Positions 652 through 64,000 of a DNA stretch of 64,000 nucleotides are shown piece after piece. The notes below the pieces were generated by a model. The model had not been told where the DNA came from, ran no database searches, and saw only the letters and a program-made list of their open reading frames with translations. The position numbers were made by a program, and so were the translations under genes. This DNA is from Cinnamomum chago (Eukaryota > Streptophyta > Magnoliopsida > Laurales > Lauraceae): positions 63,025,501 to 63,089,500 of the forward strand of contig CP142458.1 of the NCBI GenBank assembly GCA_038049695.1, in the 5' to 3' direction. Numbering within the stretch: position 1 is the stretch's first letter; each line of letters begins with the position of its first letter.

Positions 652-2819
652 TTAAGGACAGGGTGGAGGAACTTGGGTCCCGGTGTAGAGAGCTTTGATA
701 TTGTCACACTTCGATGTGAGTGGCGCTGCACCTTTGCTTGGTGTTATATTAATGTCCTGGAGCTTGACGTTTTTGCATGGCAAGCCCTTGCTACAAAGGA
801 GTGTTACACCGACTTCAGATGCAGATGTCCCTTGGATGTTTTTGAAGGTGACATCGCTGATCTGCACTTTAGAAGGTACCTGCATGTTGCAATTGAAGGA
901 AAGGACATAAATTAAGTTGAAAATTGAAAATGTCACTGACCCACGATAGGTCTACAACATATGAATGAGTTCTATATATATCGAAATTCCATGGGAGTGG
1001 CTCATCTTACTAACTTAGAGAACAAGGAGAAGAAGAAGGAGAAAAAAATGTTTACTCTCTTCATACATCATTTGCACAGGCGCCACTAGGACAGTATTCC
1101 TGATCGATGATGATTGGATTGTTGACATTTTTGAAGGTGATGTTCTCGAAGGTTACGTTGGACACAGAGCTGGCCGAGGGAGAGTTGCCCCATGACTTGA
1201 TCCTAATACCATTCAAGGTGTCTGAGATGGTGCTGTCACTAATGATGAGTCCAGTCACATCCTTCTCACCTGGGTACTTTCCTAAGCTCCCCACACTGTT
1301 ATTTTTTTTTTATAACAAACCAATCATAAGACCAAACAACAACAACAATTACAACAAGCACGCAATCAGTCAGCAATGCCTAGGCAACAAAGCAAAGGTA
1401 CGTGTCATATCCTTTTGCTTGATTATTGAGTATAAAAGTACAATATCCCATTTTAATTTATAATTATAAGCTATAGCATAGAAGAGATGGAGAAGAAAAA
1501 CGCGCCTTATTCCATGGCCTGGTCCACAAGTTACTTTACTGATATGTACATTAGTGAGGCCCTGTCCGAGTGAGATGCAGTCGTCGCCGGTTCCAATTGT
1601 AGCACCCTCGATGGTCACATCGGAGCAACGTTCCACATGCATTCCATCAGTGTTGGGACTGTCGCCGGGGTTGGTGACTTTGAAATTTACAGCTTTGAAG
1701 TTCGTGCATTCGACGACACCAAAGTTGAAGTTCTTGCTATTGAGCGATGTTATGCCATCGATGACAGTGTTGGTCATAGATATGAACTTCAAGTTCTGTG
1801 GAGTAGACACAATAAAATTATTGACACTTGATGCAAGATTAAGATTTTGTAGGCACCCACCTCCTCCAATTTATTTCTAATAGAGAATTGGATGTATTTA
1901 TTATTACTACTTACAGTTGGAAGAAGCTTGCACTTTTCATTCTTTTGGCAATCGTTTAAGTGCCAAATAGAAGCTCCTTGCCCATCAAAAACTCCAGTTC
2001 CAGTGATGGTCAACCCATCTATCGATCCAAAATATACCCAATCTCCACTTGGAAACTTGTTCAGGTCGGTCTCCGCCAGCAGATGACCCTGTAAATTACA
2101 AATAAAGATTGCCAAGATTAATCTTTATGTAAAGTAAGTCTAGTAATAAATAGTGTGACACTTAAACCATGGATGATATTCTCACTGGAAATCACTAAAA
2201 ATAAAAAAATACAGAGTTTCAACAGATGTACTCTCACATCCAATTTCATGGTGATTGATGGTACGCCTTTGCAAGGGCCTGTGAATTTAAGAGGGCCCAT
2301 CCAATAATCGCCTTTTGGTACTATAATTGTAGCTGGTCCGCTGGACCCACATGCCGCTGTCCATGCATCTTGAAAGGCCTGCTCACCAACAAAATTAAGT
2401 GTCAGACATATAAAATGAAATGAGATTTTTTTGTGGGGGGAGAGGCCCCAGCCTTCTGGTAAGGAAAGTAGACCTCGGGTGAGGCGAGGGAGATCTTGGT
2501 TGAGGGAAGGTGACACTTAGATAAGAACCGACACCTCTCACAACTGGGGTAAAAGGTCGTTCTTGAGATAATATTTAACTAGTACAATACAAGTCTAGTA
2601 CAAAATCTTGTGTGTTTTTGTCCCTTTGCGATTGAAGAATTGTCCACTGAAATAAAATAAATAAATAAATATTCTTTATTGTAATCAAACTAAACCAACC
2701 TTGGCATCATCTGTCTTCCCATCAGCTTTTGCCCCATGATCCATAATGTTGAATTCCCCACACAGGGCAACTCCAATGAAACAACAGATAAAGGATAGGA
2801 AGAAGCAATGCTTCATCAT
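652..2819 (-). CDS. Exopolygalacturonase-like GH28 gene, copy A1
   Basis: Six exons join to a 393-residue protein: 2819-2700, 2378-2238, 2088-1915, 1795-1506, 1295-1067, 879-652. Phases agree at every junction. The family hydrolyses galacturonic acid links of pectin in the cell wall. Residues 1-21 form a signal peptide. The four GH28 motifs are present: NTD at 193-195, GTGDDC with DD at 216-217, CGPGHG with H239, and RIK at 273-275. Several N-x-T sites suggest glycosylation. Length and the FNIMDHGAKADG start fit the plant exopolygalacturonase clade, often pollen-expressed. The start is the first of two adjacent ATGs; a TATA box lies about 80 bases upstream. Introns are GT-AG except intron 4 (1505-1296), whose donor reads AAG|GCGCGT. 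This GC donor could splice poorly; retention would end the protein before the RIK motif. Exo rather than endo activity is inferred from family resemblance. Confidence 0.9.
1296..1505 (-). other. PG-A1 intron 4 with GC-AG splice sites
   Basis: On the minus strand exon 4 ends in ATAAG followed by GCGCGT, and the intron ends in AACAG before TGTGGGG. Joining at these points restores the conserved GHGISVGSLG segment. PG-A2 and both PG-B copies have GT at this donor, so the GC is derived in unit 1. GC-AG introns are a known minor class, so splicing may continue. Read through, the frame continues for a few dozen codons to a stop. Confidence 0.85.
2421..2569 (-). mobile_element. SINE-like retroposon in intron 1 of PG-A1
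   Basis: An insert of 137 bp (2427-2563) is flanked by the 6-bp direct repeat TGAGAT at 2421-2426 and 2564-2569. Read on the minus strand it ends in a short A run, as a retroposed element would. The matching intron of PG-B lacks it, so it arrived after the A/B duplication and before the unit duplication. I do not see clear polymerase III boxes, so family assignment is open; it could be a truncated SINE. Confidence 0.6.
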
Positions 2820-8200: not shown

Positions 8201-10303
8201 TCTATCACGCACACTGCTTTCTTGATGTAGGCGGCATCTGGCTTAATCTCTAATGGCTTATACTTGATGACATGCGATGGATTTGCAATAAACTTCCTCA
8301 TCATTGATACGTGGAAGACATCGTACACTGCAGTCTGCTGCTAAGTCTAGAAGTTGAGTCTATCTATAGGCCAAATCTCCGACTCTGTTGCGAGTCTCGG
8401 AAGATCCAATGTAACAAGGGGAAATTTTCCTTTCTACTTGAACCGAATAGTGCCTTTCATAGGTGAAACCTTCAAAAAGACCGTATCCCCAATTTGAAAT
8501 TTAAGATCACTTCGTCGATTATCTTTATAGCTCTTCTTCCTACTGTGGGCCAGTTTCAACCTTTTTTTTCCCTAGCTTTACTCTGTCACTTGTCTCTCCA
8601 ATAATAGTAGGCCCATTGAAACTTTTCACACCAAATTCTTCTTAGCAAACTACTGCCTTGTACCTCCTACCATAGAGAGCCTCAAACGGTGTCATCCTAA
8701 TACTCTCGTGAACTTCTTCTCAGCAAATTACTGCCTTGTACCTCCTACCATAGAGAGCCTCAAACGGTGTCATCCTAATACTTGCGTGAAAGTTGTTATT
8801 GTATGCGAACTCATACAACGCCAAATGTCGATCCCACTCTATCTTAAAGTGTAACACAGAAGCTCCAAGCATGTCCTTAAGAGTCTGGATCGTCCTCTTT
8901 GATTGCTCGTCGGTCTGCGGATGATATGTTGTGCTAAAACTCAACTTCCTTCCCATGGCCTCCTGAAAAGTCACCTAAAAATACGAAACAAAGCGGTTAT
9001 CTTTGTTTGACACTATAGAAACTGGGATACCATGTAGTTTGACAATTTCCTGAATAAACATTTTCGTCATCTTATCCATCTTGGTCCCTGTCCTAAAAGG
9101 AATAAAGTGTCCAGACTTAGTCAATTTGTCAACTATCGCCCAAATATAATTATCGTGCTTCCTCGTCTCTGGCAAAACGGACACAGAATTCATTATAATA
9201 TGCTCACATTTTCAATTAAGAATATTCAATGGCTTCAAAAGTCATAGGGGCTTCTTCTATTCTGCTTTGATCCTCTACCATGTCATGCACCTAGAAACAA
9301 GCCTAGTGATTTCTTTATTCATATTGTTCCACCAAAATATGCCCCTCATGTTCCGGTACATCTTAGGACTCCGGGGATGCATAGAATACCGTGTATGATG
9401 CGCCTTTAACTTTATCTAATTCTACAAATCTTCAACATTGGGCATACACAATCTGTCCCAAAAATACAAGACTCCATCTACTATTCCAAAATCTGGCCTC
9501 TCTACAAGCCTTTACGGACTCTAGCCAACTTGGGTCCTGGAACTGTCTATCTTTAATCTATTGCATCAGAACTGGCTCGAACATTGACATACCGGCTAGC
9601 ATCACCTTGCCATTAACAAATTCAATCTCCACATCCAAGGCCCTAAACTTCTCAATTAAATCCCATTCACCACGCAAACAAGCCAACGTGACTAACTTCC
9701 GACTAAGTGCATTTGCCGCCACATTGCTTTTACCCGAAAAATACCGTATCGAGAAATCGTAGTCAGCTATAAGTTCCATCCAACTATGTTGCCTCATATT
9801 CATCTCCTTTTGAGAAAAGAGGTACTGCAAACTTCTATGATCAGAGGGATCCTCAAACCTCTCTCCATAGAGATAACGTTTCCAATGCTTTAGGGAAAAA
9901 ACGGCCGCTACTTGCTCCAAACCGTGTTTGTCAAAGTTTTTCCCATGAATCTTCAGCTGCCTAGACCCATAAGTCACTGCCTTGTCATCCTCCAACTCAA
10001 CCTTCAAAGTGTCAGTAAAGATAACAAATCCGCTCTTAGTTAGTATGGTCAACACTGTGGCTGTAGTAAGCTTCTTCATAAGCAATTCAAAACTATCCTC
10101 TCACTCTTGGGTCCAAGCAAAAGAAACGTTCTTCCTAGTCAGCTTAGTCAACAGAGTTGATATCTTCGAGAATCCTTCAGACAAATCTTATATAATATCC
10201 ACCCAAACCTAGAAAACTTCTGATCCCTATCGCATTCTTTGGGCTTTGCCAATTCACTATAACCTCTATCTTCAATGGAACAACCGCTAGGCCATCTTTA
10301 GAT
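5296..10303 (-). mobile_element. Ty3/gypsy fossil with one long LTR, unit 1
   Basis: A broken chromoviral-type Ty3 element in minus orientation. Parts in element order: the end of reverse transcriptase and RNase H (about 10300-9558), integrase core (about 9193-8720, with HPQTDEQSKRTIQT-like and EALYGRR motifs), an integrase C-terminal/chromodomain-like tail (about 8520-8110), a purine-rich tract next to 8102, then a 3' LTR at 8101-5296. Read on the minus strand the LTR starts TGTTAAAG and ends GGGCATGACA. The 5' part and 5' LTR are absent, so no target duplication can be read. It carries many breaks. It clearly predates the unit duplication. Confidence 0.85.
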
Positions 10304-10856: not shown

Positions 10857-13137
10857 CTATAAGTTACTTTGGCCTTGAACAAGGTACCCGTGTCGGTTTC
10901 TGATTTTTCCGAGGGCCGTTTCCCATTTCGGACCCCCAGCGGGCCATTTTCGAGAATCATTTGTAGAACAATTATCTAATATCAAACATGATAATTTATT
11001 CTCAATTTTCCAATTAAGTATACTTAGAGTAATATTGTCATCTAGCATTTGGTCAGTGTGGTGAGGATCAACATGATGAAAGTTAATTATACGCGATCTA
11101 AGAACCCAATCAGAGTCAATATAATGTGCTGTAATAGCCATATAACATAAATGCTGGTTCAATGTCCACATATCTACTGTGAGAGCAATCCTGCTACTGA
11201 GATCCTTGAATCCTTTAAAGATCTCATTCTTTTTTTTCATTGTACATTTCCATACAATCTGCCTTCACAGTGTTACGTGATACAATCTTGAATTCGGGTC
11301 GTAGAGTCGCACAGAACTCTAAAAAGCCTTGTAGTTCAACAACATTAAAAGGAAAATCATGTAAAAACAACATTTTTGCAAGGGCTTCTCGACTCTTTTT
11401 TTGTTCAAATTTAAAAACACCAACACCGGTTTTTGTTTGAGCATCAGTCCTTAAAGTTTGTTGTTGTTTTTACTTATCAATGCTTGGTTTCATAAGACAC
11501 GATTTCAAGTGTCTATGCAGGTGTGAAGTTCCATCCTCAGGTCTACTGACTAGAAGTTTCTTGCAATATTTGCACACCGCTTTAACTTTAGGGACATCCT
11601 TACTATAAACTTTCACAGACACTTCTGTTTTTTGAAAGTGTTCCCAAACCACTGACTTGAGCCTTCTTGCATTAGTCTCATTTGAAATTACTTCATCATT
11701 GGGAGAGGGGATGGGAGGCACTTGCTCATTACCGCCACCACCCATATCATCATCAATGGGGATGGGGACATGTGCAGGAATGAGAATGTTACTAGCACTA
11801 CTAGAAGGCGTACCAGCAGACATATTTACTGAAATATCAAAAGAAACAAAAACAAGAACACCACTACTCTCTGTCCAGTTTTTCATGGGCAGTCCCTTGT
11901 TGCACTAGAGGACTATGCTGTCCGGGATTTCAACAGAGAGATGAATGATGAGTTTTTCAACATTGATGTGTTTTAAGTGTAAATGAATATTTCATATGTT
12001 GTGAATGAAGTCAAATGTAGGGCATTAACCTTCAGATTGATTTGAACCCAGAGAAAAAAAGGGGGAAAAAAAGAAAAAAAAAGGTGATGTTTTTTTCGTG
12101 TGTAAACTTGGAAGTTTACATTGCAATTGTTTAGAGTGGTGATGACGTATATGATAGGAGGAATCTCTGATACAAACAAATCCACTGGTAGCCTACCTTT
12201 GAAACCCATCACAGCACAAATGTAACTGATCAAAGTAAAAAATACAAACACAAACACAAAGACACATGTCACGCATCTATAGAAAAGGAAAACAAAGAAA
12301 CAAAAGAAATAGAAAATCTGATAGGGAAAATGAAAAGGAGATACATTCACAGGAAATCAAAAAGGGGCAAAAAGAAAAACAAAGAAAATCTAATTGATTC
12401 AGATTTTCATTGCTCAACCATGCAATCACAAATTAAGAGAAGTAAAAAAGGTAACAAATTTACCTTGAGCGGTATCTATGAGACGTTAGCCCGTGAGTAG
12501 AAATATTGAGCATTGACTGAGAGATAGAAAAAGGAAGAGGGAGAAGAAGAAAGATAGAAACAGAGAATAGGGGAGATGTACCGAGGGTGACGGTGAGAGA
12601 GGGCAGAGGGCGACGACTGGGTGAGGGAGGAAAAAAAAGAGGGATAGGGAGAGAGGCGACGGTGCGAGAGGGGCCGCCGGCATCGTCAGCGTGCGTACGT
12701 CGTGCGACGGTGAGAGGGCTTGCTGTGACGACGAGAGTAGAGAACCATGACCGAGAGCAGAGAGCTGAAGAGGCAGAGAGCTAAGAACGATTGAGTGTGG
12801 GATTTTTTAGGGTTCCCCATTACATCGTCTTGTAAAAGAGATGGAGGGCGCAATTATAAGAATGCCCCTCCTAACTAGCCGTTTTTTGGCTGTTAGTGAG
12901 GGGCAGTTTAGGTAATATAAATTTTTTATCAAAATTAACTTGGAGCGGGCCGGGCCGGGCCTGAACGGGTTGGGCATCCTCTGCCCAGTCCCAGTCCCAT
13001 TTTGGCCGGGCTTTAAAATTATTGACCAAGCTCATCCCACTGGGCTCAAATTTTTTTATAAAGCCTGGTATTTTCGGGGTTGGGACGGGCCGAGCCGGGC
13101 TTTCTACTCGTTTCAACCCGTCCCATTGACAGGCCTA
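10857..13137 (-). mobile_element. hAT (Ac-like) transposon remnant with BED finger, unit 1
   Basis: A minus-strand transposase begins near 11886. Its first 138 codons hold a BED zinc finger (VWEHFQKT, CKYCKK, HLHRHLKSC). After an in-frame TAA comes QQQTLRTDAQTKTGVGVFKF and a central region. A frame change at an A8 homopolymer near 11240 follows, then the RICESLEEPER-like block RIALTVDMWTLNQHLCYMAI to LILDNCSTND. The C-terminal dimerisation part is missing. The 5' terminus lies at about 13137: read on the minus strand it starts TAGGCCTGTCAATGGG, followed by GGGCCGGGCC-rich subterminal DNA (12940-13120), typical of plant hAT ends. The other terminus and 8-bp target duplications were not found. 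A GA-rich leader covers about 12490-12780. Confidence 0.8.
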
Positions 13138-16128
13138 CTTACAATGAAATAAGGGATCCACTTGAGTTGCCTATTATACAAAGTAGAGTTCTTGTTCCAC
13201 TTAATGATTATCAAGAGGAACAAAAACCACAAAAAAATCCCATCAATGAGGCATTCCCTGAACAAAATAATGATCCACTTCAAAATACACAACAAAGCAT
13301 CAATGAACCCGATCCGGAGATATTGAGAAGGTCAACTCGAATGAGAAAACCTGCTATTCCGGATGACTATGTAGTGTATTTGGAAGAATCTGGTCTTGGC
13401 ATTAAAGAAGATCCTAAGACGTTTAAGGAAGCCATTGAAAATGAGAATTTCGATAAATGGTTTGAGGCCATGAAGGATGAGTTAGAATCAATGGCCACAG
13501 ATGAAGTTTGGGATATCGTTGAACTACCCAAGGGTTCCAAGGTCGTTGGCTGTAAATGAGTCTTTAAGACCAAAAGGGATTCCAAAGGGAAAGTTGAACG
13601 GTTCAAAACCCGACTCGTGGCCAAAGGTTTTACTCAGAGAGAAGGTATAGAATATCATGAAACCTAATCTCCGGTGTCTAAAAATGACTCATTTAGAATT
13701 GTCATGACAATTGTAGCTCATTTCAACTTAGAGTTACAACAAATGGACGTCAAAACAACGTTTTTAAATGGAGATCTAGATGAAAAAGTGTATATGGAAC
13801 AACCTGAAGGTTTCATGAAAGAGAATGAAAATAAACTAGTTTGTAAATTAAAGAAATCGACATATGGTTTTAAATAGTCTTCCAAACAATGGTATTTAAA
13901 GTTCAATCGCATTATTACATCTTTTGGTTTTACCAAAAATATCGTTGATCATTGTATATATCTCAAAGTTAGTGGGAGCCGATTTATGATTTTAGTCCTA
14001 TATGTTGATGATATTTTATTGGCTAGTAATGATCTTGGAATGATTTACGAAACTAAGGAATATCTTAAGAACAATTTTGAAATGAAAGATATGGGTTAAG
14101 CGACATTTGTAATAGGAATCGAGATTTATCGAGATAGATCTCGAGGATTACTTGGGTTATCACAGGAAGCCTATATTAAAAATGTACTTAAGAGATTTCG
14201 TATGGAAGGGTGTAAGGCACAAAATGTACCTATGACAAAAGGTGACAAGTTTAGTAATGAACAATGTCCAAGAAATGAAATTGAAAGGAAACAAATGGAA
14301 ACGTGTCCTTATGCAGCTACAATCGGATGTTTTATGTATGCACAAACATGCACTAGACCCGATATCAGTTTTGTAGTTGGCATGCTTAGTAGATATCAAA
14401 GTGATCCGGGAATGGCACATTGGGTAGGAGTCAAGAAAGTTTTGCGATACCTTAGTGGCACAAGAAATTACATGCTCTCTTACAGAAGGTTCGATCACTT
14501 AGAAGTGGTCGGTTATTCGGATGCTGACTTCGCTGGTTGCCTCGATACAAGAAAGTCGACTTCAGGATACATCTTCCTGTTAGTTGGCGGGGCAATTTCA
14601 TGGAGAAGTGCAAAGCAAACTTTAGTGACTCCATCCACATTTGATGCTGAATACGTGGCATGCTTTGAAACCATGGGTCACGCTTTATGGATGCATGATT
14701 TTATCTCGGGACTACGTGTTATGGACACCATTTCTGAGCCCTTGAAGATTTATGGTGATAATGACGCTGCAAGAAGATTTGCTCAGAATGACAAGGTTTC
14801 CAGTAAATCAAAATTTCTGGAAGTAAAATACCTTGTACTAAAAAAAAGGTACGATATCGGTTAGTGTCTGTCGTTGGGATCCCGACAAGCCTCGTGATAA
14901 TAGATCCTTTGACAAAGGCATTGGCGTCAAAGGACTACAAAGAGCATGTTAGAAATATGGGCTTGATTGAATTGCTTTGTTAAAGATATGTAAAGACACT
15001 GTCATATTTATCACCGAAATAAGATTTCATATTTTCTTACTTTATTGAAATTATTGTCACATGTGATTGAAGTGTATAAAGTGAGAAAATTAAAGAAAAA
15101 TGGCATTATTGTACCCAATAAATAGGATTGCCATGAAAATCATCCTATTTTACCCTTATTAAGGATTGTGTTAAGTTAGAATATTAGTGAATTAATTATG
15201 GAAGGAAGCACGTCGTTCAAGACATGTTAACCGCCATAGTTCTCATTGGCAAATTGATTTAATTACAAATTAAAGATTGACATAAAGGTTGAGATGACAA
15301 TTGTTATTTTAAAATGGTGATCACCAGCCAAAGTCCTTTTTTTTTAAACTTAGTTTTTCGATTATATTTTAAAATTCTTTTGTGGTCATATGGACCAAGT
15401 GGGAGAATGTTGGACCGAATGTTATGGCCTATATGACCATACATAAAGGATCGGTTATCCCTCATTTGAATTTCTTTAAATTGATTAATGTTTTCCTTTT
15501 GTAACTGTCATCTATGTTAATTTGAAGGTTAAAAGCTATTTATTCTCTTCTTGATGGAATGAGAGATTTAGGGCCTATGAAAAGCAACCCGGGTTGAGAT
15601 GGCAATTGTTATTTTAAAGTGGTGATCACCAGTCAAAGTCTTTTTTTTTTTAAAGTTCGTGTTTCGATTATATTTTAAAATTCTTTTGTGGTCATATGGA
15701 CCAAGTGGGAGAATGTTGGACCCAATGTTATGACCCATATGACCATACATAAAGGATCGGTTATCCCTCATTTGAATTTCTTTAAATTGATTTAAGTTTT
15801 CCTTTCATAACTGTCATCTATGTTAATTTGAGGGTTAAAAGTTATTTATTCTCTTCTTGATGGAAGGAGAGATTTAGGGTCTATAAAAAGCAACCCAGGT
15901 AACTTTCTCAGCAACGATTGTTTTCTCTGCATCCATCACTTACCGGAGAAGAAAAGAAAAGGCACAAAAGAGTTGTGATTTCCCATTGAAGACCAACCTT
16001 CTGTTGGATCAAAGTCTGAAGATGGAACAATCAGGTACCATTTTACTTTTCTACTGGTTTAGATTAAATGTTTACAGTATTATTGGATTGATTCCAGAGA
16101 GGGTTTATAAACCTAAGATTTTCTAACA
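13138..16128 (+). mobile_element. Ty1/copia fossil, 3' half with 3' LTR, unit 1
   Basis: A broken copia element starting abruptly beside the hAT terminus. It holds the linker and reverse transcriptase (about 13140-14160; RRSTRMRKP, DVKTTFLNGDL, YVDDILLAS motifs), then RNase H (about 14500-14960; SDADFAGCLDTRKSTSGY, DAEYVA). A purine-rich tract AGTGGGAGAA precedes the 3' LTR at 15714-16128, which starts TGTTGGA and ends TCTAACA and is 415 bp. The boundary region is tandemly duplicated (15288-15592 and 15593-15897), so a second LTR start lies at 15408. Gag, protease, integrase and the 5' LTR are absent. Several breaks are present. Confidence 0.88.
15288..15897 (+). repeat. Two tandem 305-bp repeats at copia 3' LTR boundary
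   Basis: The block beginning GTTGAGATG and running through the purine-rich tract and the first part of the LTR occurs twice in direct orientation with period 305. The copies differ at several positions, so the duplication is older than the unit duplication. The same arrangement is at 46929-47538 in unit 2. It gives the element two potential 3' LTR starts, at 15408 and 15714. Confidence 0.85.
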
Positions 16129-16803: not shown

Positions 16804-18826
16804 TTATTGAGTGCAGGGTGGTGGAACTTGGGTGCCACTATAGAGAGCTTTGATATTGACGCACATGGCTGTAACTGGAGGTCCACCATTTTCTTTTTTG
16901 ATATTAATGTCCTGGAGCTGGACATTCTTGCATGGGAAACTCGAGCTGCAGCAAAGGGTAACTGCAACATTTGACGCAGAAGTCCCTTGGTTATGTTCTT
17001 GAAAGTGATATCACTGATCTTCACTTTAGAAGGTACCTGCATGTTGTAATTGAAGGAAATGAGAGATTTAAGGGTCTTTTTGTTTCATAAGAGAAAAGAT
17101 CAATACGTCATTATAGGTCTACAACACACACACACACACACACAAATCCATGGGAGTGGGTGCTGTGACTAACATAGAGAACAAAGAAGAAAAAAAAAGT
17201 TTAGTCTCTTCAAACCTCATTTGCACAAGAGCCACTAGGACAGTATTGCTGATCAACGATGATTGGATTGTAGACATTTTTAAAGGTGATGTTCTCAAAG
17301 GTTATGTTGGATTGTGAGCTGGCCGAGGGAGAATTGGCCCATGACTTGATCCTAATACCATTCAGGGTGTCAAAGATGCTGGTGTCTTTAATAATAAGTC
17401 CAGTCACATCCTTTTCGTCTGCGTACTTTCCTAAGCTCCCCACACTGTTATTTTTAAGTAAGAAACCACTCATAACCAAACAACAACAATTACAACAAGC
17501 AATCAATCACTAATGCCCAGGAAACAAAGCAAAGGCCACATTCTTTTGCATACTAAGTGTAAAGCAATATCCCATTCTATTTGTAATTATAAGCTATAAC
17601 AAAGAAGAGAGAGAGAGAGAGAGAAGAAAAATGCACCTTATTCCATGGCCTGGTCCACAAGTTACTTTACTGATATGTACATTAGTGAGGCCCTGTCCGA
17701 GGGAGATGCAGTCATCGCCGGTTCCAATCTGAGCACTCTAGATGGTCACAGCGGAGCAACGCTCCACATGCATTCCATCAGTGTTGGGACTGTCGCCGCC
17801 GGGGTTGGTGACTTTGAAATTTATAGCTTTGAAGTTCTTGCTATTGAGGGATGTTATGCCATCAATGACAGTATTGGTCATAGACATAAACTTGAGGTTC
17901 TGTGGAGTATGCACAATAAAATTATTGACACTAGATGCAAGATTCAGATTTTTTAGGAAACCACCTCCTTCAATTTATTTGTACCAGAGAATTGGATATA
18001 TTATTATTACTCACAATTGGGAAGAAGCTTCCACTTTTCATTCTGTTGGCAATCGTTTAAGTGCCAAATAGCAGCTCCTTGACCATCAAAAACTCCAGTT
18101 CCAGTGATGGTCAATCCATCTATCCATCCAAAATAAATCCAATCTCCACTAGGAACCTTGTTCAGTTCGGTCTCCGCCAACAGATGACCCTATCAAATAC
18201 AAATAAAGATTGACATTCTGTATGTAAGTCTACAAATAATTAGTGTGACACTTAAACCATGGATAAGATTCACCGTGCTTCAGGAGCATCCCACAAAAAT
18301 GACAAATGTTTGCTCACTGTACACTACGTATCCAAAAAAAAAAAAACAAAGAGTTCAAGCAGAACAACTCTAACAACCAATTTCATGGTTATAGATGGTA
18401 CGCCTTTGCATGAGCCTGTGAATTTAAGTGAGCCCATCCAGTAATCACCTTTTAGCACTATAATTGTAGCTGGTCCAATGGACCCACACGCTGCGGTCTG
18501 TGTGTCCTGAATCCACAAAATATAAACACCATCATGCACATGTTAGACATATACAATGAAATGAGAGACGGTCTTTAACAAGTACGATGCAAGTCCAGCC
18601 CAATTAGTTCAAAATCTAGGCCTCATTGTTCATATTTTTGCCCTTATATTATAGAATTATGATTGAAAAATTGTCTAAACATCGTTATAATCAAACTAAA
18701 CAAACCTTGGCATCGTCTGTATTCCCATCGGCTTTTGCCCCATGATCCATAATGTTGAATTCCCCACACAGGCGAACTCCAATTAAACAACAGATAAAAG
18801 GATAGGAAGAAGCTCTTCTTCATCAT
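16804..18826 (-). pseudogene. Exopolygalacturonase-like pseudogene, copy B1
   Basis: Older paralogue of PG-A with the same six-exon layout: 18826-18706, 18506-18375, 18189-18015, 17899-17637, 17444-17216, 17036-16804. Lesions seen directly: a one-base insertion in exon 1 after the signal-peptide codons (121 versus 120 bp), a weak intron-2 donor (GTTAGA), one extra base at the end of exon 3 (175 versus 174), an in-frame TAG in exon 4 at 17740-17738 where PG-A has GAG, and a two-base insertion early in exon 6. Exon 4 also lost 30 bp in frame between direct repeats of GAACTTCAA, and exon 2 lost three codons at its acceptor. The NTDG, GDDC, GHGI and RIK codons survive. All the frame-disrupting lesions are shared with PG-B2, so it was dead before the unit duplicated. 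Confidence 0.92.
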
Positions 18827-20451: not shown

Positions 20452-22589
20452 TTCTCTTCTTCCTGACATCATTTCCCTTCATCATGTTGCTTTCTTAAAG
20501 CGAAGGAAAATTCAATATCACATTGCTCTGGCGCATGAGTTGACCCAGAAATTTCAAAAGGGCGTCAAAGGTAAAGGCGTTTGTCTGAAGCTAGACATTT
20601 CGAAAGCTTTTGACAAACTAGATTGGGCTTTTCTGTTTAAGGTGCTAGAGTTTTTTGGCTTTAGCAAGGCGTGGATCTCCCTCATCCAAGAATGCGTGTA
20701 CTCTCCAAAGGGCTCCATTCTCATCAACAGGGAGCCTACAGGCTATTTAAATTCGGTAGTGGTTTAAGGCCGGGGGATCCTCTATCCCCTTACTTCTTCA
20801 TCCTAGTGGAAGAAATTCTAAGTCTGAACATTACAAATCTTGTTTCCCATAATCAAGTCGTCCCAATCTAAAGAGCTCTAGCTTCCCCCTCTATATGCCA
20901 CCTAATGTTTGCAGATGACATCCTTCTCTTTTTTCAAGCGTTCCCCCAGAGTGTTAGAGTTATTTAGAGAGTGTTGAAAGCGTATCAAATGGCAGCGGGA
21001 CAACATTTCAGTCTCTCCAAAAGTAAGATTCTCTTTGACAATAGCAGGCAGTCATTCAAATCAAGGATCTCGAGATCCTTACGCATTTCCCAGGCTATAT
21101 TTCTGGTCAAATATTTGGGAGTTCCCCTCTTCATAGGCAGCCTAAAAGCTAGATACTTTGAAAGTATGAAGGATTCCTTCAGGAAAAGGCTAGCTGGTTG
21201 GAAAAGTAATACGCTTTCTTTTGTGGGAAGGGTTATTTTGGTGAAGCATGTGCTCCAAAGCCTTCCTATTCACACCTTGCTGGTTATCCCTATTCTGAAC
21301 TCGATTTGCAGATTCATGGAAAAATGGATGAGGAACTTCCTTTGGTCTGGAGGATCTTTTCCAACTAAGAGAAGCCTTCTCAACTGGAAAACAGTTTGTC
21401 TTCCAAAATCAGAAGGAGGTCTTGGCTTTCGTCGCTTAAAGGACTTGATCTTGGCAAGCTTGGTCGGGTTAGGTTGGACAGCCTTCTCTTCATCTTCTCT
21501 GTGGGCTTCCTGCTTTAAAGCTAAGTATTTCAAAGGTTTCTCTCCCTGGCATCTAGGAGCATTAATCTCTGGTTCTTGCATTTGGAGGCAAATAAAGAGT
21601 AGGTCCCACTTCTTGTTTCAAAATAGCCACTGGTTTCTGGGTGAAGGAAAAATCATAAGTTTTTGGCATGACAAATGGCATCGTCCTCTTTCTTTGGCGG
21701 AGAAGTTCCCTGATATCCTTTTTCCCTGGAATGAATCTGTGCATGATATCTTCTCCAACCCTCAGTGGCTCTCAAGTTCTACTTGTCCCCAGCCGGTGAT
21801 CTTTGCCTCCTCCACTCTTTTGGCGAATTTCTACCTCTCCAATATCCGTGATAAGCTGATCTGGATGAGCTCAAATCCCAACCATCTCCCTTTCTTCGTT
21901 GCTTGGGAATCCATTAGAGCTAGGAGCTTTCCTAGAGTCTGGTCTAACTTTGCTTGGAACAGTCTCCTTAAGCCCTCCATTGCTTGTGTTTGCCTGGAAA
22001 TTGTTCCATAACAAACTTCCAACCAACTCTTGGGCCCAATCAATTGGAGTGCAGCTGGTGTCTTCGCGCTACCTATGCGGTATCCACCAAGAGACTTCTT
22101 ACAATATGTTCTTCCTCTGCCCTTTTGCCTTGAACTTCTGGGCCTGGTTAGAAGCTAAAGGCAACATCTTCTCTACTCCTTTTTACTCTGCTGCTGCCAG
22201 ATGGAGATCTTTTTTAGCCAACTCTTGTTACAAAGCAAAAAAGGGCCTGGGAGCTCTCTTCTTAGTGGGGCCATCTTCAGCATATGGAAGGTCAGAAACT
22301 GGGCAATTTTCAACAATTTGAAGCCTTTCCTTGACACTGCAATCATCTTCTTCTTGGCTGAAGCACCCATATCTCTTGGTAAAATGTCTTCTTCCTTTAA
22401 GAGCTCCTCCCTAGCTAGAAGCCTTCTTTCCTCTATGTAATCAGCCATCTCCTAACATGCATGAGATAGCTTGTGCCCTGTTTTCTTTTGGTCTTCTTGT
22501 TTCTTGTTTTGCTTTCTTTTTGTTCTTTCTTCCTTCCCTTAATAATTCAATTTGCAACTTAGCAAAAAAAAAAAAAAGAAAAAGAAAAA
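20452..22589 (+). mobile_element. LINE (L1 type), 5'-truncated, unit 1
   Basis: A plant L1-type LINE lacking ORF1, the endonuclease and the N-terminal reverse transcriptase. Recognisable parts: the first palm motif around KLDISKAFDKLDW (about 20585), GLRPGDPLSPYFFIL (about 20764), the FADDILLFF active-site motif (about 20908), the thumb/RNase-H-like region in a 346-codon frame (20971-22011; KYLGVPLF, GWKSNTLSFVGRVILV), and a zinc-binding reverse-transcriptase tail (about 21970-22150). Stops after 20767 and before 20971 and a one-base insertion near 21986, absent in unit 2, break the frame. It ends in an A-rich tail at 22564-22589. No target duplication was found. Confidence 0.88.
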
Positions 22590-32285: not shown

Positions 32286-34451
32286 TTAAGGACAGGGTGG
32301 AGGAACTTGGGTCCCGGTGTAGAGAGCTTTGATATTGTCACACTTCGATGTGAGTGGCGCTGAACCTTTGCTTGGTGTTATATTAATGTCCTGGAGCTTG
32401 ACGTTCTTGCATGGCAAGCCCTTGCTACAAAGGAGTGTTACACCGACTTCAGATGCAGATGTCCCTTGGATGTTTTTGAAGGTGACATCGCTGATCTGCA
32501 CTTTAGAAGGTACCTGCATGTTGCAATTGAAGGAAAGGACATAAATTAAGTTGAAAATTGAAAATGTCACTGACCCACGATAGGTCTACAACATATGAAT
32601 GAGTTCTATATATATCGAAATTCCATGGGAGTGGCTCATCTTACTAACTTAGAGAACAAGGAGAAGAAGAAGGAGAAAAAAATGTTTACTCTCTTCATAC
32701 ATCATTTGCACAGGCGCCACCAGGACAGTATTCCTGATCGATGATGATTGGATTGTTGACATTTTTGAAGGTGATGTTCTCGAAGGTTACGTTGGACACA
32801 GAGCTGGCCGAGGGAGAGTTGCCCCATGACTTGATCCTAATACCATTCAAGGTGTCCGAGATGGTGCTGTCACTAATGATGAGTCCAGTCACATCCTTCT
32901 CACCTGGGTACTTTCCTAAGCTCCCCACACTGTTTTTTTTTTTTATAACAAACCAATCATAAGACCAAACAACAACAACAATTACAACAAGCACGCAATC
33001 AGTCAGCAATGCCTAGGCAACAAAGCAAAGGTACGTGTCATATCCTTTTGCTTGATTATTGAGTATAAAAGTACAATATCCCATTTTAATTTATAATTAT
33101 AAGCTATAGCATAGAAGAGATGGAGAAGAAAAACGCACCTTATTCCATGGCCTGGTCCACAAGTTACTTTACTGATGTGTACATTAGTGAGGCCCTGTCC
33201 GAGTGAGATGCAGTCGTCGCCGGTTCCAATTGTAGCACCCTCGATGGTCACATCGGAGCAACGTTCCACATGCATTCCATCAGTGTTGGGACTGTCTCCG
33301 GGGTTGGTGACTTTGAAATTTACAGCTTTGAAGTTCGTGCATTCGACGACACCAAAGTTGAAGTTCTTGCTATTGAGCGATGTTATGCCATCGATGACAG
33401 TGTTGGTCATAGATATGAACTTCAAGTTCTGTGGAGTAGACACAATAATATTATTGACACTTGATGCAAGATTAAGATTTTGTAGGCACCCACCTCCTCC
33501 AATTTATTTCTAATTGAGAATTGGATGTATTTATTATTACTACTTACAGTTGGAAGAAGCTTGCACTTTTCATTCTTTTGGCAATCGTTTAAGTGCCAAA
33601 TAGAAGCTCCTTGCCCATCAAAAACTCCAGTTCCAGTGATGGTCAACCCATCTATCGATCCAAAATATACCCAATCTCCACTTGGAAACTTGTTCAGGTC
33701 GGTCTCCGCCAGCAAATGACCCTGTAAATTACAAATAAAGATTGCCAAGATTAATCTTTATGTAAAGTAAGTCTAGTAATAAATAGTGTGACACTTAAAC
33801 CATGGATGATATTCTCACTGGAAATCACTAAAAATAAAAAAATACAGAGTTTCAACAGATGTACTCTCACATCCAATTTCATGGTGATTGATGGTACGCC
33901 TTTGCAAGGGCCTGTGAATTTAAGAGGGCCCATCCAATAATCGCCTTTTGGTACTATAATTGTAGCTGGTCCGCTGGACCCACATGCCGCTGTCCATGCA
34001 TCTTGAAAGGCCTGCTCACCAACAAAATTAAGTGTCAGACATATAAAATGAAATGAGATTTTTTTGTGGGGGGAGAGGCCCCAGCCTTCTGGTAAGGAAA
34101 GTAGACCTCGGGTGAGGCGAGGGAGATCTTGGGTGAGGGAAGGTGACACTTAGATAAGAACCGACACCTCTCACAACTGGGGTAAAAGGTCGTTCTTGAG
34201 ATAATATTAACTAGTACAATACAAGTCTAGTACAAAATCTTGTGTATTTTTGTCCCTTTGCGATTGAAGAATTGTCCACTGAAATAAAATAAATAAATAA
34301 ATATTCTTTATTGTAATCAAACTAAACCAACCTTGGCATCATCTGTCTTCCCATCAGCTTTTGCCCCATGATCCATAATGTTGAATTCCCCACACAGGGC
34401 AACTCCAATGAAACAACAGATAAAGGATAGGAAGAAGCAATGCTTCATCAT
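32286..34451 (-). CDS. Exopolygalacturonase-like GH28 gene, copy A2
   Basis: Exons 34451-34332, 34011-33871, 33721-33548, 33428-33139, 32929-32701 and 32513-32286 give a 393-residue protein. It differs from copy A1 by only two residues: Ala to Ser in the PSKGAAPL segment of exon 6 and Ser to Gly in the YCPSGAC segment of exon 5. The signal peptide and all four GH28 motifs (NTD, GDDC, GHG, RIK) are intact. Every intron is GT-AG, including intron 4, whose donor is AAG|GTGCGT. Five further coding differences from A1 are silent. This is the copy most likely to be fully functional. The leader contains a run of 22 A directly before the start codon, absent in A1. Secreted pectin hydrolysis is inferred from the family. 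Confidence 0.92.
34054..34202 (-). mobile_element. SINE-like retroposon in intron 1 of PG-A2
   Basis: Same insert as in PG-A1: 34060-34196 with the TGAGAT direct repeat at 34054-34059 and 34197-34202. Its presence in both units shows it predates the tandem duplication. Confidence 0.6.
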
Positions 34452-48446: not shown

Positions 48447-50463
48447 TTATTGAGTGCAGGGTGGTGGAACTTGGGTGCCACTATAGAGAGCTTTGATATT
48501 GACACACATGGCTGTAACTGGAGGTCCACCATTTTCTTTTTTGATATTAATGTCCTGGAGCTGGACATTCTTGCATGGGAAACTCGAGCTGCAGCAAAGG
48601 GTAACTGCAACATTTGACGCAGAAGTCCCTTGGATATGTTCTTGAAGGTGATATCACTGATCTTCACTTTAGAAGGTACCTGCATGTTGTAATTGAAGGA
48701 AATGAGAGATTTAAGGGTCTTTTTGTTTCATAAGAGAAAAGATCAATACGTCATTATAGGTCTACAACACACACACACACACAAATCCATGGGAGTGGGT
48801 GCTGTGACTAACTTAGAGAACAAAGAAGAAAAAAAAAGTTTTGTCTCTTCAAACCTCATTTGCACAAGAGCCACTAGGACAGTATTGCTCATCGACGATG
48901 ATTGGATTGTAGACATTTTTGAAGGTGATGTTCTCAAAGGTTATGTTGGATTGTGAGCTGGCCGAGGGAGAATTGGCCCATGACTTGATCCTAATACCAT
49001 TCAGGGTGTCAGAGATGCTGGTGTCTTTAATAATAAGTCCAGTCACATCCTTTTCGTCTGCGTACTTTCCTAAGCTCCCCACACTGTTATTTTTAAGTAA
49101 GAAACCACTCATAACCAAACAACAACAATTACAACAAGCAATCAATCACTAATGCCTAGGAAACAAAGCAAAGGTCACATTCTTTTGCATACTAAGTGTA
49201 AAGCAATATCCCATTCTATTTGTAATTATAAGCTATAACAAAGAAGAGAGAGAGAGAGAGAAGAAAAATGCACCTTATTCCATGGCCTGGTCCACAAGTT
49301 GCTTTATTGATATGTACATTAGTGAGGCCCTGTCCGAGGGAGATGCAGTCATCGCCGGTTCCAATCTGAGCACTCTAGATGGTCACATCGGAGCAACGCT
49401 CCACATGCATTCCATCAGTGTTGGGACTGTCGCCGCTGGGGTTGGTGACTTTGAAATTTATAGCTTTGAAGTTCTTGCTATTGAGGGATGTTATGCCATC
49501 AATGACAGTATTGGTCATAGACATAAACTTGAAGTTCTGTGGAGTATGCACAATAAAATTATTGACACTAGATGCAAGATTCAGATTTTTTAGGAAACCA
49601 CCTCCTTCAATTTATTTGTACCAGAGAATTGGATATATTATTATTACTCACAATTGGGAAGAAGCTTGCACTTTTCATTCTGTTGGCAATCGTTTAAGTG
49701 CCAAATAGCAGCTCCTTGACCATCAAAAACTCCAGTTCCAGTGATGGTCAATCCATCTATCCATCCAAAATAAATCCAATCTCCACTAGGAACCTTGTTC
49801 CGTTCGGTTTCCGCCAACAGATGACCCTATCAAATACAAATAAAGATTGACATTCTGTATGTAAATCTACAAATAATTAGTGTGACACTTAAACCATGGA
49901 TAAGATTCACCGTGCTTCAGGAGCATCCCACAAAAATGACAAATGTTTGCTCACTGTACACTACGTATCCAAAAAAAAAAAAACAAAGAGTTCAAGCAGA
50001 ACAACTCTAACAACCAATTTCATGGTTATAGATGGTACGCCTTTGCATGGGCCTGTGAATTTAAGTGAGCCCATCCAGTAATCACCTTTTAGCACTATAA
50101 TTGTAGCTGGTCCAATGGACCCACACGCTGCGGTCTGTGTGTCCTGAATCCACAAAATATAAACACCATCATGCACATGTTAGACATATACAATGAAATG
50201 AGAGACGGTCTTTAACAAGTACGATGCAAGTCCAGCCCAATTAGTTCAAAATCTAGGCCTCATTGTTCATATTTTTGCCCTTATATTATAGAATTATGAT
50301 TGAAAAATTGTCTAAACATCGTTATAATCAAACTAAACAAACCTTGGCATCGTCTATATTCCCATCGGCTTTTGCCCCATGATCCATAATGTTGAATTCC
50401 CCACACAGGCGAACTCCAATTAAACAACAGATAAAAGGATAGGAAGAAGCTCTTCTTCATCAT
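48447..50463 (-). pseudogene. Exopolygalacturonase-like pseudogene, copy B2
   Basis: Exon remnants at 50463-50343, 50143-50012, 49826-49652, 49536-49274, 49083-48855 and 48679-48447. It shares all frame-disrupting lesions with PG-B1: the exon-1 insertion, the exon-3 extra base, the exon-4 TAG at 49377-49375, the two-base exon-6 insertion and the 30-bp deletion. By hand count it differs from PG-B1 at about 17 of 1153 positions, more than twice the A1/A2 rate, as expected without selection. The TATA box at 50565-50558 is intact. Confidence 0.92.
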
Positions 50464-63274: not shown

Positions 63275-64000
63275 GGGACTCCATTCCATTTAGGACATGT
63301 TCCTATGCGCGACAAGCGCGTGCAGAGAGAGAGAGAGAGAAAGTGGTTGAGATTAGAGCTACCTCTTTTTGTTGAAGACTAGTGGTTTAGAGTGGTTCTC
63401 TTAATGCTATATCTTACGTGTTACCTTCTGCTGTGATTTTTTTAGAAATTCTAATTCTGCTTGAATGAGATTAAAGAATTTTAATCTTCAATTAATTAAC
63501 TATTTTTTCATCATGTTGGGCGAACGGCCAATGTTTTACATGATTTTTAGATAAGCAAGGAGTGGATAGGTCTTCTAATTAATTTCATTGCTTTCACTAT
63601 GTAATCTGTTTTATTGGTATAATGCTTTTATACCATATAATGCCCCTTTTTATGTGGGGGTGCTTCTTTGCAATCCTTTTTCTTCCATTAATATATTTCA
63701 TCATTACCAATAGAAAAAAAAGATGTTATTCTCACTGAGCATATATATGTAAATAATTAGAGATTACAAAACTGAATGGCCTACTCAGTTGGCCAAATTC
63801 ACAAGAAAATAGGACTGATATAAACATTTGTTGCGATTCCTCTCATGTGGAAACTGGGTTTTATGAATATAACTACACTTTACAACCATAACAAATCACT
63901 TGATAATTGTAACCTATTAATAAGACTTAAGGACAGGGTGGAGGAACTTGGGTCCCGGTGTAGAGAGCTTTGATATTGTCACACTTCGATGTGAGTGGCG
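63275..64000. repeat. Tandem segmental duplication, unit 3 (cut by window end)
   Basis: The first 726 bases of a third copy, aligning to positions 1-725 of unit 1 with a few changes: one extra GA dinucleotide, one fewer T in a T run, and single substitutions. Some variant sites match unit 1 and others match unit 2. It shows the array continues rightwards beyond the window. Confidence 0.95.
63927..64000 (-). CDS. Exopolygalacturonase-like gene, copy A3 (3' end only)
   Basis: The last part of exon 6 of a third PG-A copy, with the stop codon at 63929-63927. It encodes the C-terminus CDNIKALYTGTQVPPPCP, identical to A1 and A2. The rest lies beyond the window, so its state is unknown. Confidence 0.85.
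   Translation of the reverse strand, partial: PLTSKCDNIKALYTGTQVPPPCP

Follow-up and report, generated by a model that had tools for sequence, protein, structure and literature searches.

Intron 4 of PG-A1, a gene in a large array of tandem polygalacturonase copies, begins with GC at a boundary where the other copies read begin with GT. The sequence leads us to predict, with a probability of about 0.6, that splicing of this intron is impaired but leaky as the result of a young T-to-C change in a redundant array. A recent substitution would have turned a GT-AG intron into a GC-AG intron, most likely lowering its splicing without abolishing it. The window, i.e., the whole stretch of DNA that was analysed, is 64,000 nucleotides long and corresponds to C8:63025501-63089500 of the assembly; the genome searched comprises 1.06 Gb in 14 contigs.

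PG-A1 and the GC donor of intron 4

The features under study are listed below in window coordinates. All are on the minus strand.

652..2819, minus strand: PG-A1, a GH28 polygalacturonase gene with six exons encoding 393 aa (intact-frame spliced model and Pfam PF00295)
2819-2700, 2378-2238, 2088-1915, 1795-1506, 1295-1067 and 879-652, minus strand: the exons of PG-A1 in the spliced model
1506..1795, minus strand: exon 4 of PG-A1, whose 3' end holds the GHGI codons and the AG of a split codon (spliced model)
1504..1505, minus strand: GC donor dinucleotide of intron 4, in which C replaces T at +2 (position 1504; G on the plus strand) (spliced model and copy comparison)
1296..1505, minus strand: intron 4 of PG-A1, GC...AG, 210 bp, 68% A+T, with an A-rich 3' end (spliced model)
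1067..1295, minus strand: exon 5 of PG-A1, which holds the RIK motif and would stay untranslated if intron 4 were retained (spliced model and junction reading)
33137..33138, minus strand: GT donor of intron 4 in PG-A2 (L012) (junction read)
17635..17636, minus strand: GT donor of intron 4 in the disabled copy PG-B1 (L037) (junction read)
49272..49273, minus strand: GT donor of intron 4 in the disabled copy PG-B2 (L032) (junction read)
17200-17930 and 48850-49570, minus strand: matched stretches of the disabled copies PG-B1 and PG-B2, respectively (block search)

Profile and active-site motifs agree that the predicted product of PG-A1 is a GH28 polygalacturonase. The PF00295 profile matches residues 50-380 with an E value of 2.2e-97 and so covers the mature protein. 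Among solved structures, the protein matches the plant polygalacturonase ADPG2 and two chains named 'pectin lyase-like' (E about 1e-81). The spliced protein contains SPNTDG, GDDC, GPGHGI and RIK, corresponding to the NTD, DD, GHG and RIK motifs, which we take to be the active-site motifs of GH28 polygalacturonases.

In the spliced model, intron 4 has the borders AAG/GCGCGT at the donor and TAACAG/TG at the acceptor. The preliminary description had placed a GC donor directly after the GHGI codons of PG-A1 and GT donors in PG-A2, PG-B1 and PG-B2, and our reading of the four junctions agrees with it to the base. It had also reported that the PG-A1 and PG-A2 proteins differ at two residues, and these are S312G and A369S. 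The intron starts with GC, ends with AG and has a boundary backed by its paralogues, since all 30 other array copies with a readable junction have GT...AG at the same place. Compared with the AGgcaag donor consensus, which is a tendency of the GC-AG class and no strict rule, the PG-A1 site keeps the AG and the G at +5 and lacks the A at both +3 and +4.

Distribution of the GC donor

Searching the genome with the exon 4-intron 4-exon 5 block of PG-A1 revealed an array on C8, at about 62.74-63.42 Mb; for families of this size the search gives minimum copy numbers. Junctions were read at all 30 array loci from the block search and at two further partial places. Of the 31 copies in which the junction could be read, 17 A-type and 14 B-type, only one has the GC donor, and it is A-type; the 32nd copy, L040, is broken and has no readable junction. 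An exact pattern search of the whole genome, allowing C or T at +2, likewise returned 17 A-type junctions, one with GC and 16 with GT. Outside the array, C1 and C5 hold related polygalacturonase loci in which this intron is present, and the five examined all carry GT (GTGCAA, GTACAT or GTGCAT), three of these being apparently copies of one another. Because these five loci have GT, the C at +2 of PG-A1 is derived and GT is ancestral. In the more distant genes L001 and L002, intron 4 is absent and the sequence runs on.

We also considered that GC might be common to other copies, as the Pfam scan gave PG-A1 and the copies at 62971586 and 63168182 the same open-frame length of 269. Junction reading ruled this out: all three share the 210-bp intron and only PG-A1 has GC. 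Since intron 4 contains in-frame stops, the equal length is presumably an effect of the scan joining matches.

As for the layout of the region, the window contains a tandem pair of units, each about 31.6 kb long, that are 98.9% identical and lie within the larger array. The array holds about 32 polygalacturonase copies in about 0.7 Mb and two types, A (mostly intact) and B (disabled), with five of the A copies, at 63.27-63.42 Mb, in inverted orientation. The A-type copy L014 (C8:62881853-62885611) has the B-type donor form GTGCAT, the other close GT-bearing A copies having GTGCGT. Between the polygalacturonase genes there are open frames at 9558-10085, 13080-14864 and 20971-22011, with similar ones about 31.6 kb further on, which we presume to be fragments of LTR and non-LTR retroelements.

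Predicted strength of the GC donor

Base pairing with U1 was expressed as a simple home-made count, not the output of a trained predictor, which is 14 for the PG-A1 site and 16 for its GT form. The PG-A1 donor has mismatches to U1 at -3, +2 and +4 and a wobble at +3. A rough duplex calculation, in which the register was not fixed, gave -3.0 kcal/mol for the GC site vs -6.3 kcal/mol for the GT form. Experience with human genes points in the same direction. Among human +2T>C donor changes that were tested, about 15-18% yield any wild-type transcript (PMC8375439). Human +2T>C donors that still splice are said to keep an AGgcaa core and to have arisen from strong GT sites (PMC12805630), and the PG-A1 site reads AGgcgc.

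The same numbers leave room for an ordinary, working U2-type GC-AG intron, with PG-A1 spliced normally or nearly so and the change silent. We consider this possible but rather unlikely. Introns of the GC-AG class are a regular minority in plants, accounting for 1.488% of splice-site pairs in one survey (PMC7072748), or 1.2% in a plant survey validated by RNA-seq (PMC6310983). The PG-A1 site keeps the AAG exon end, +5G and +6T. Its pairing count equals or exceeds those of the PG-A1 donors of introns 2 (13), 3 (14) and 5 (12), that of intron 1 being 16, and these comparisons speak against impairment, as does the possibility that plants behave differently from the human genes tested. It also exceeds the count of 13 for GTGCAT, the donor form found in the B copies and in L014 of the A type, and in the duplex calculation the natural GT donor of intron 5 is weaker still (-1.9). 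Furthermore, PG-A1 has no private amino-acid change. Against normal splicing, +3G and +4C stand in place of the AA usual in working GC donors, as described for human genes (PMC12805630), and no compensating private change is found beside the donor. In the plant survey, overall usage of GC-AG sites was below that of GT-AG sites (PMC6310983). A full-text literature search for plant GT-to-GC donor changes gave no apt precedent, and printed cases may exist.

Rescue through a cryptic donor was considered and rejected. Between 1300 and 1800, no scored GT site does better than the GC site, and use of the tying sites at 1401 and 1320 or of the next-best site at 1534 would shift the frame in each case.

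Consequences of intron retention

With impaired but leaky splicing, part of the PG-A1 transcripts would keep intron 4. If it is retained, the reading frame continues for 45 codons past GHGI to a TGA; the product would have 286 aa and lack the part encoded by exons 5 and 6. The expectation in the preliminary description that retention would truncate the protein before RIK therefore holds, and in-frame read-through of the 210-bp intron can be dismissed because of its in-frame stops. The stop lies 303 bases upstream of the end of exon 5. An mRNA with a stop so far before an exon junction is expected to undergo nonsense-mediated decay, and decay of the intron-4-retaining transcript is expected for this reason. 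Unspliced transcripts would thus either be degraded or be translated into an inactive 286-aa fragment.

Age of the change and chance expectation

Among the 17 A copies, PG-A1 has only four private substitutions in 3200 aligned bases, which suggests that the donor change is young. One is in intron 1, one in exon 3 (window position 2082), one in exon 4 (1544) and one is the donor change itself; both exonic changes are synonymous, as follows from the identity of the PG-A1 protein to that of the A copy L011. By number of differences, the nearest copies are L010 (15 in 3187), followed by L011 (19 in 3187) and L012, which is PG-A2 (19 in 3191). In the 761-bp block around intron 4, L010 differs from PG-A1 at three bases, the donor included.

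These private substitutions also bear on the explanation that the C at 1504 is a base-call or assembly error in a repeated region, or that the site is heterozygous and C is one of its alleles, which we regard as improbable. In the comparisons made, array units show 96.6-99.1% identity over stretches of 2.5-38 kb, so that reads could be misplaced. However, the three further private substitutions in PG-A1, two of them synonymous exonic changes, are as expected for a real copy that was assembled separately.

How readily such a change could arise was estimated from the 11 close A copies L009-L019, the set leaving out L020-L025 as more distant or poorly aligned in the flanks. These copies have 93 private substitutions in total. 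With 20 obligate splice bases in the 3200 aligned and random placement assumed, 0.025 hits on splice bases are expected for PG-A1 alone and 0.58 for the 11 copies, with a probability of 0.44 for one or more. Judged across the array, a single splice-base change is not beyond chance and fits neutral variation. A regulated PG-A1, in which the copy-specific GC donor makes one array member splicing-controlled and intron 4 retention, varying by tissue or pollen stage, sets the dose or yields a 286-aa product in pollen, is very improbable: GC donors do occur in alternatively spliced introns of other organisms, but here GC is in no other copy read, is very young and is explained by random change.

Within the 11 close copies, variation is found at 1 of 20 splice bases, 54 of 966 other intron bases, 31 of 262 synonymous and 11 of 917 nonsynonymous sites. 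The resulting pN of 0.012 and pS of 0.118 (pN/pS about 0.1) indicate strong protein constraint on the A copies as a set. Under that constraint, a harmful donor change is expected to be purged in time unless it is buffered. Because the set is constrained and PG-A1 lacks private amino-acid changes, this copy does not look decayed. Synonymous variation in these copies is about twofold that of introns (0.118 vs 0.056); possible causes are gene conversion and mutation of methylated CpG.

Redundancy among the array copies

Where the junction could be read, 16 of the 17 A-type copies have an intact spliced frame. One of them, L020, looked broken at first and proved intact when read to its own stop. 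The 17th, L025 (C8:63274132-63277885), has a broken frame and an intron 1 acceptor changed from CAG to CAA, so the A clade contains another splice change besides that of PG-A1. The copy L011 encodes a protein identical to that of PG-A1 and has a GT donor at intron 4; its gene spans the right end of the window, with the stop at window position 63927 and intron 4 outside.

The B-type copies are in a different state. Both PG-B1 and PG-B2 have an in-frame TAG and a 27-bp loss in exon 4, and their frame is broken in exon 6. None of the 14 B-type copies has an intact frame under the A-type exon model, the only model through which they were read, with four (L026, L029, L032 and L037) also read by tblastn. 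The GT donors of PG-B1 and PG-B2, which had been put forward as a functional contrast to PG-A1, therefore deserve little weight, and since both copies are disabled they tell just the ancestral state.

The suggestion that the donor base could make PG-A1 and PG-A2 functionally different in a way that matters is not supported as put. A functional gap between the two would matter little, because L011 encodes the exact PG-A1 protein in a gene with a GT donor and the frame is intact in 15 other A copies. PG-A1 would then be silenced in part, with the other intact A copies, 15 in number, as a buffer, and a phenotype would not be expected. Were all copies expressed alike, losing the output of PG-A1 would remove about one part in about sixteen. 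Taken alone, the PG-A1 donor matters little, since it is probably just a single weak allele among redundant copies. Most likely the change is unremarkable birth-and-death variation in such an array and marks either the onset of decay or a GC-AG intron that is tolerated. The close copies do offer a natural test of how plants splice a donor changed from GT to GC, with L011 giving the identical protein from a GT donor and L010 differing at just three of 761 bp.

Comparison with known systems

Like the U2-type GC-AG introns of plants, intron 4 of PG-A1 has GC at its 5' end, AG at its 3' end and a recognisable donor with an AAG exon end. It differs from them at +3/+4, where AA is typical and PG-A1 has GC, and in that its splicing is a prediction. 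With human +2T>C (GT>GC) donor variants it shares a single T-to-C change at +2 of a former GT donor. Those that still splice have the AGgcaa core in a human gene, whereas PG-A1 has neither that core nor a human background. The setting resembles tandem plant GH28 polygalacturonase genes under birth-and-death evolution, as GH28 membership, tandem duplication and the coexistence of intact and disabled copies are all found here; the array described here has its roughly 32 copies in one block of about 0.7 Mb.
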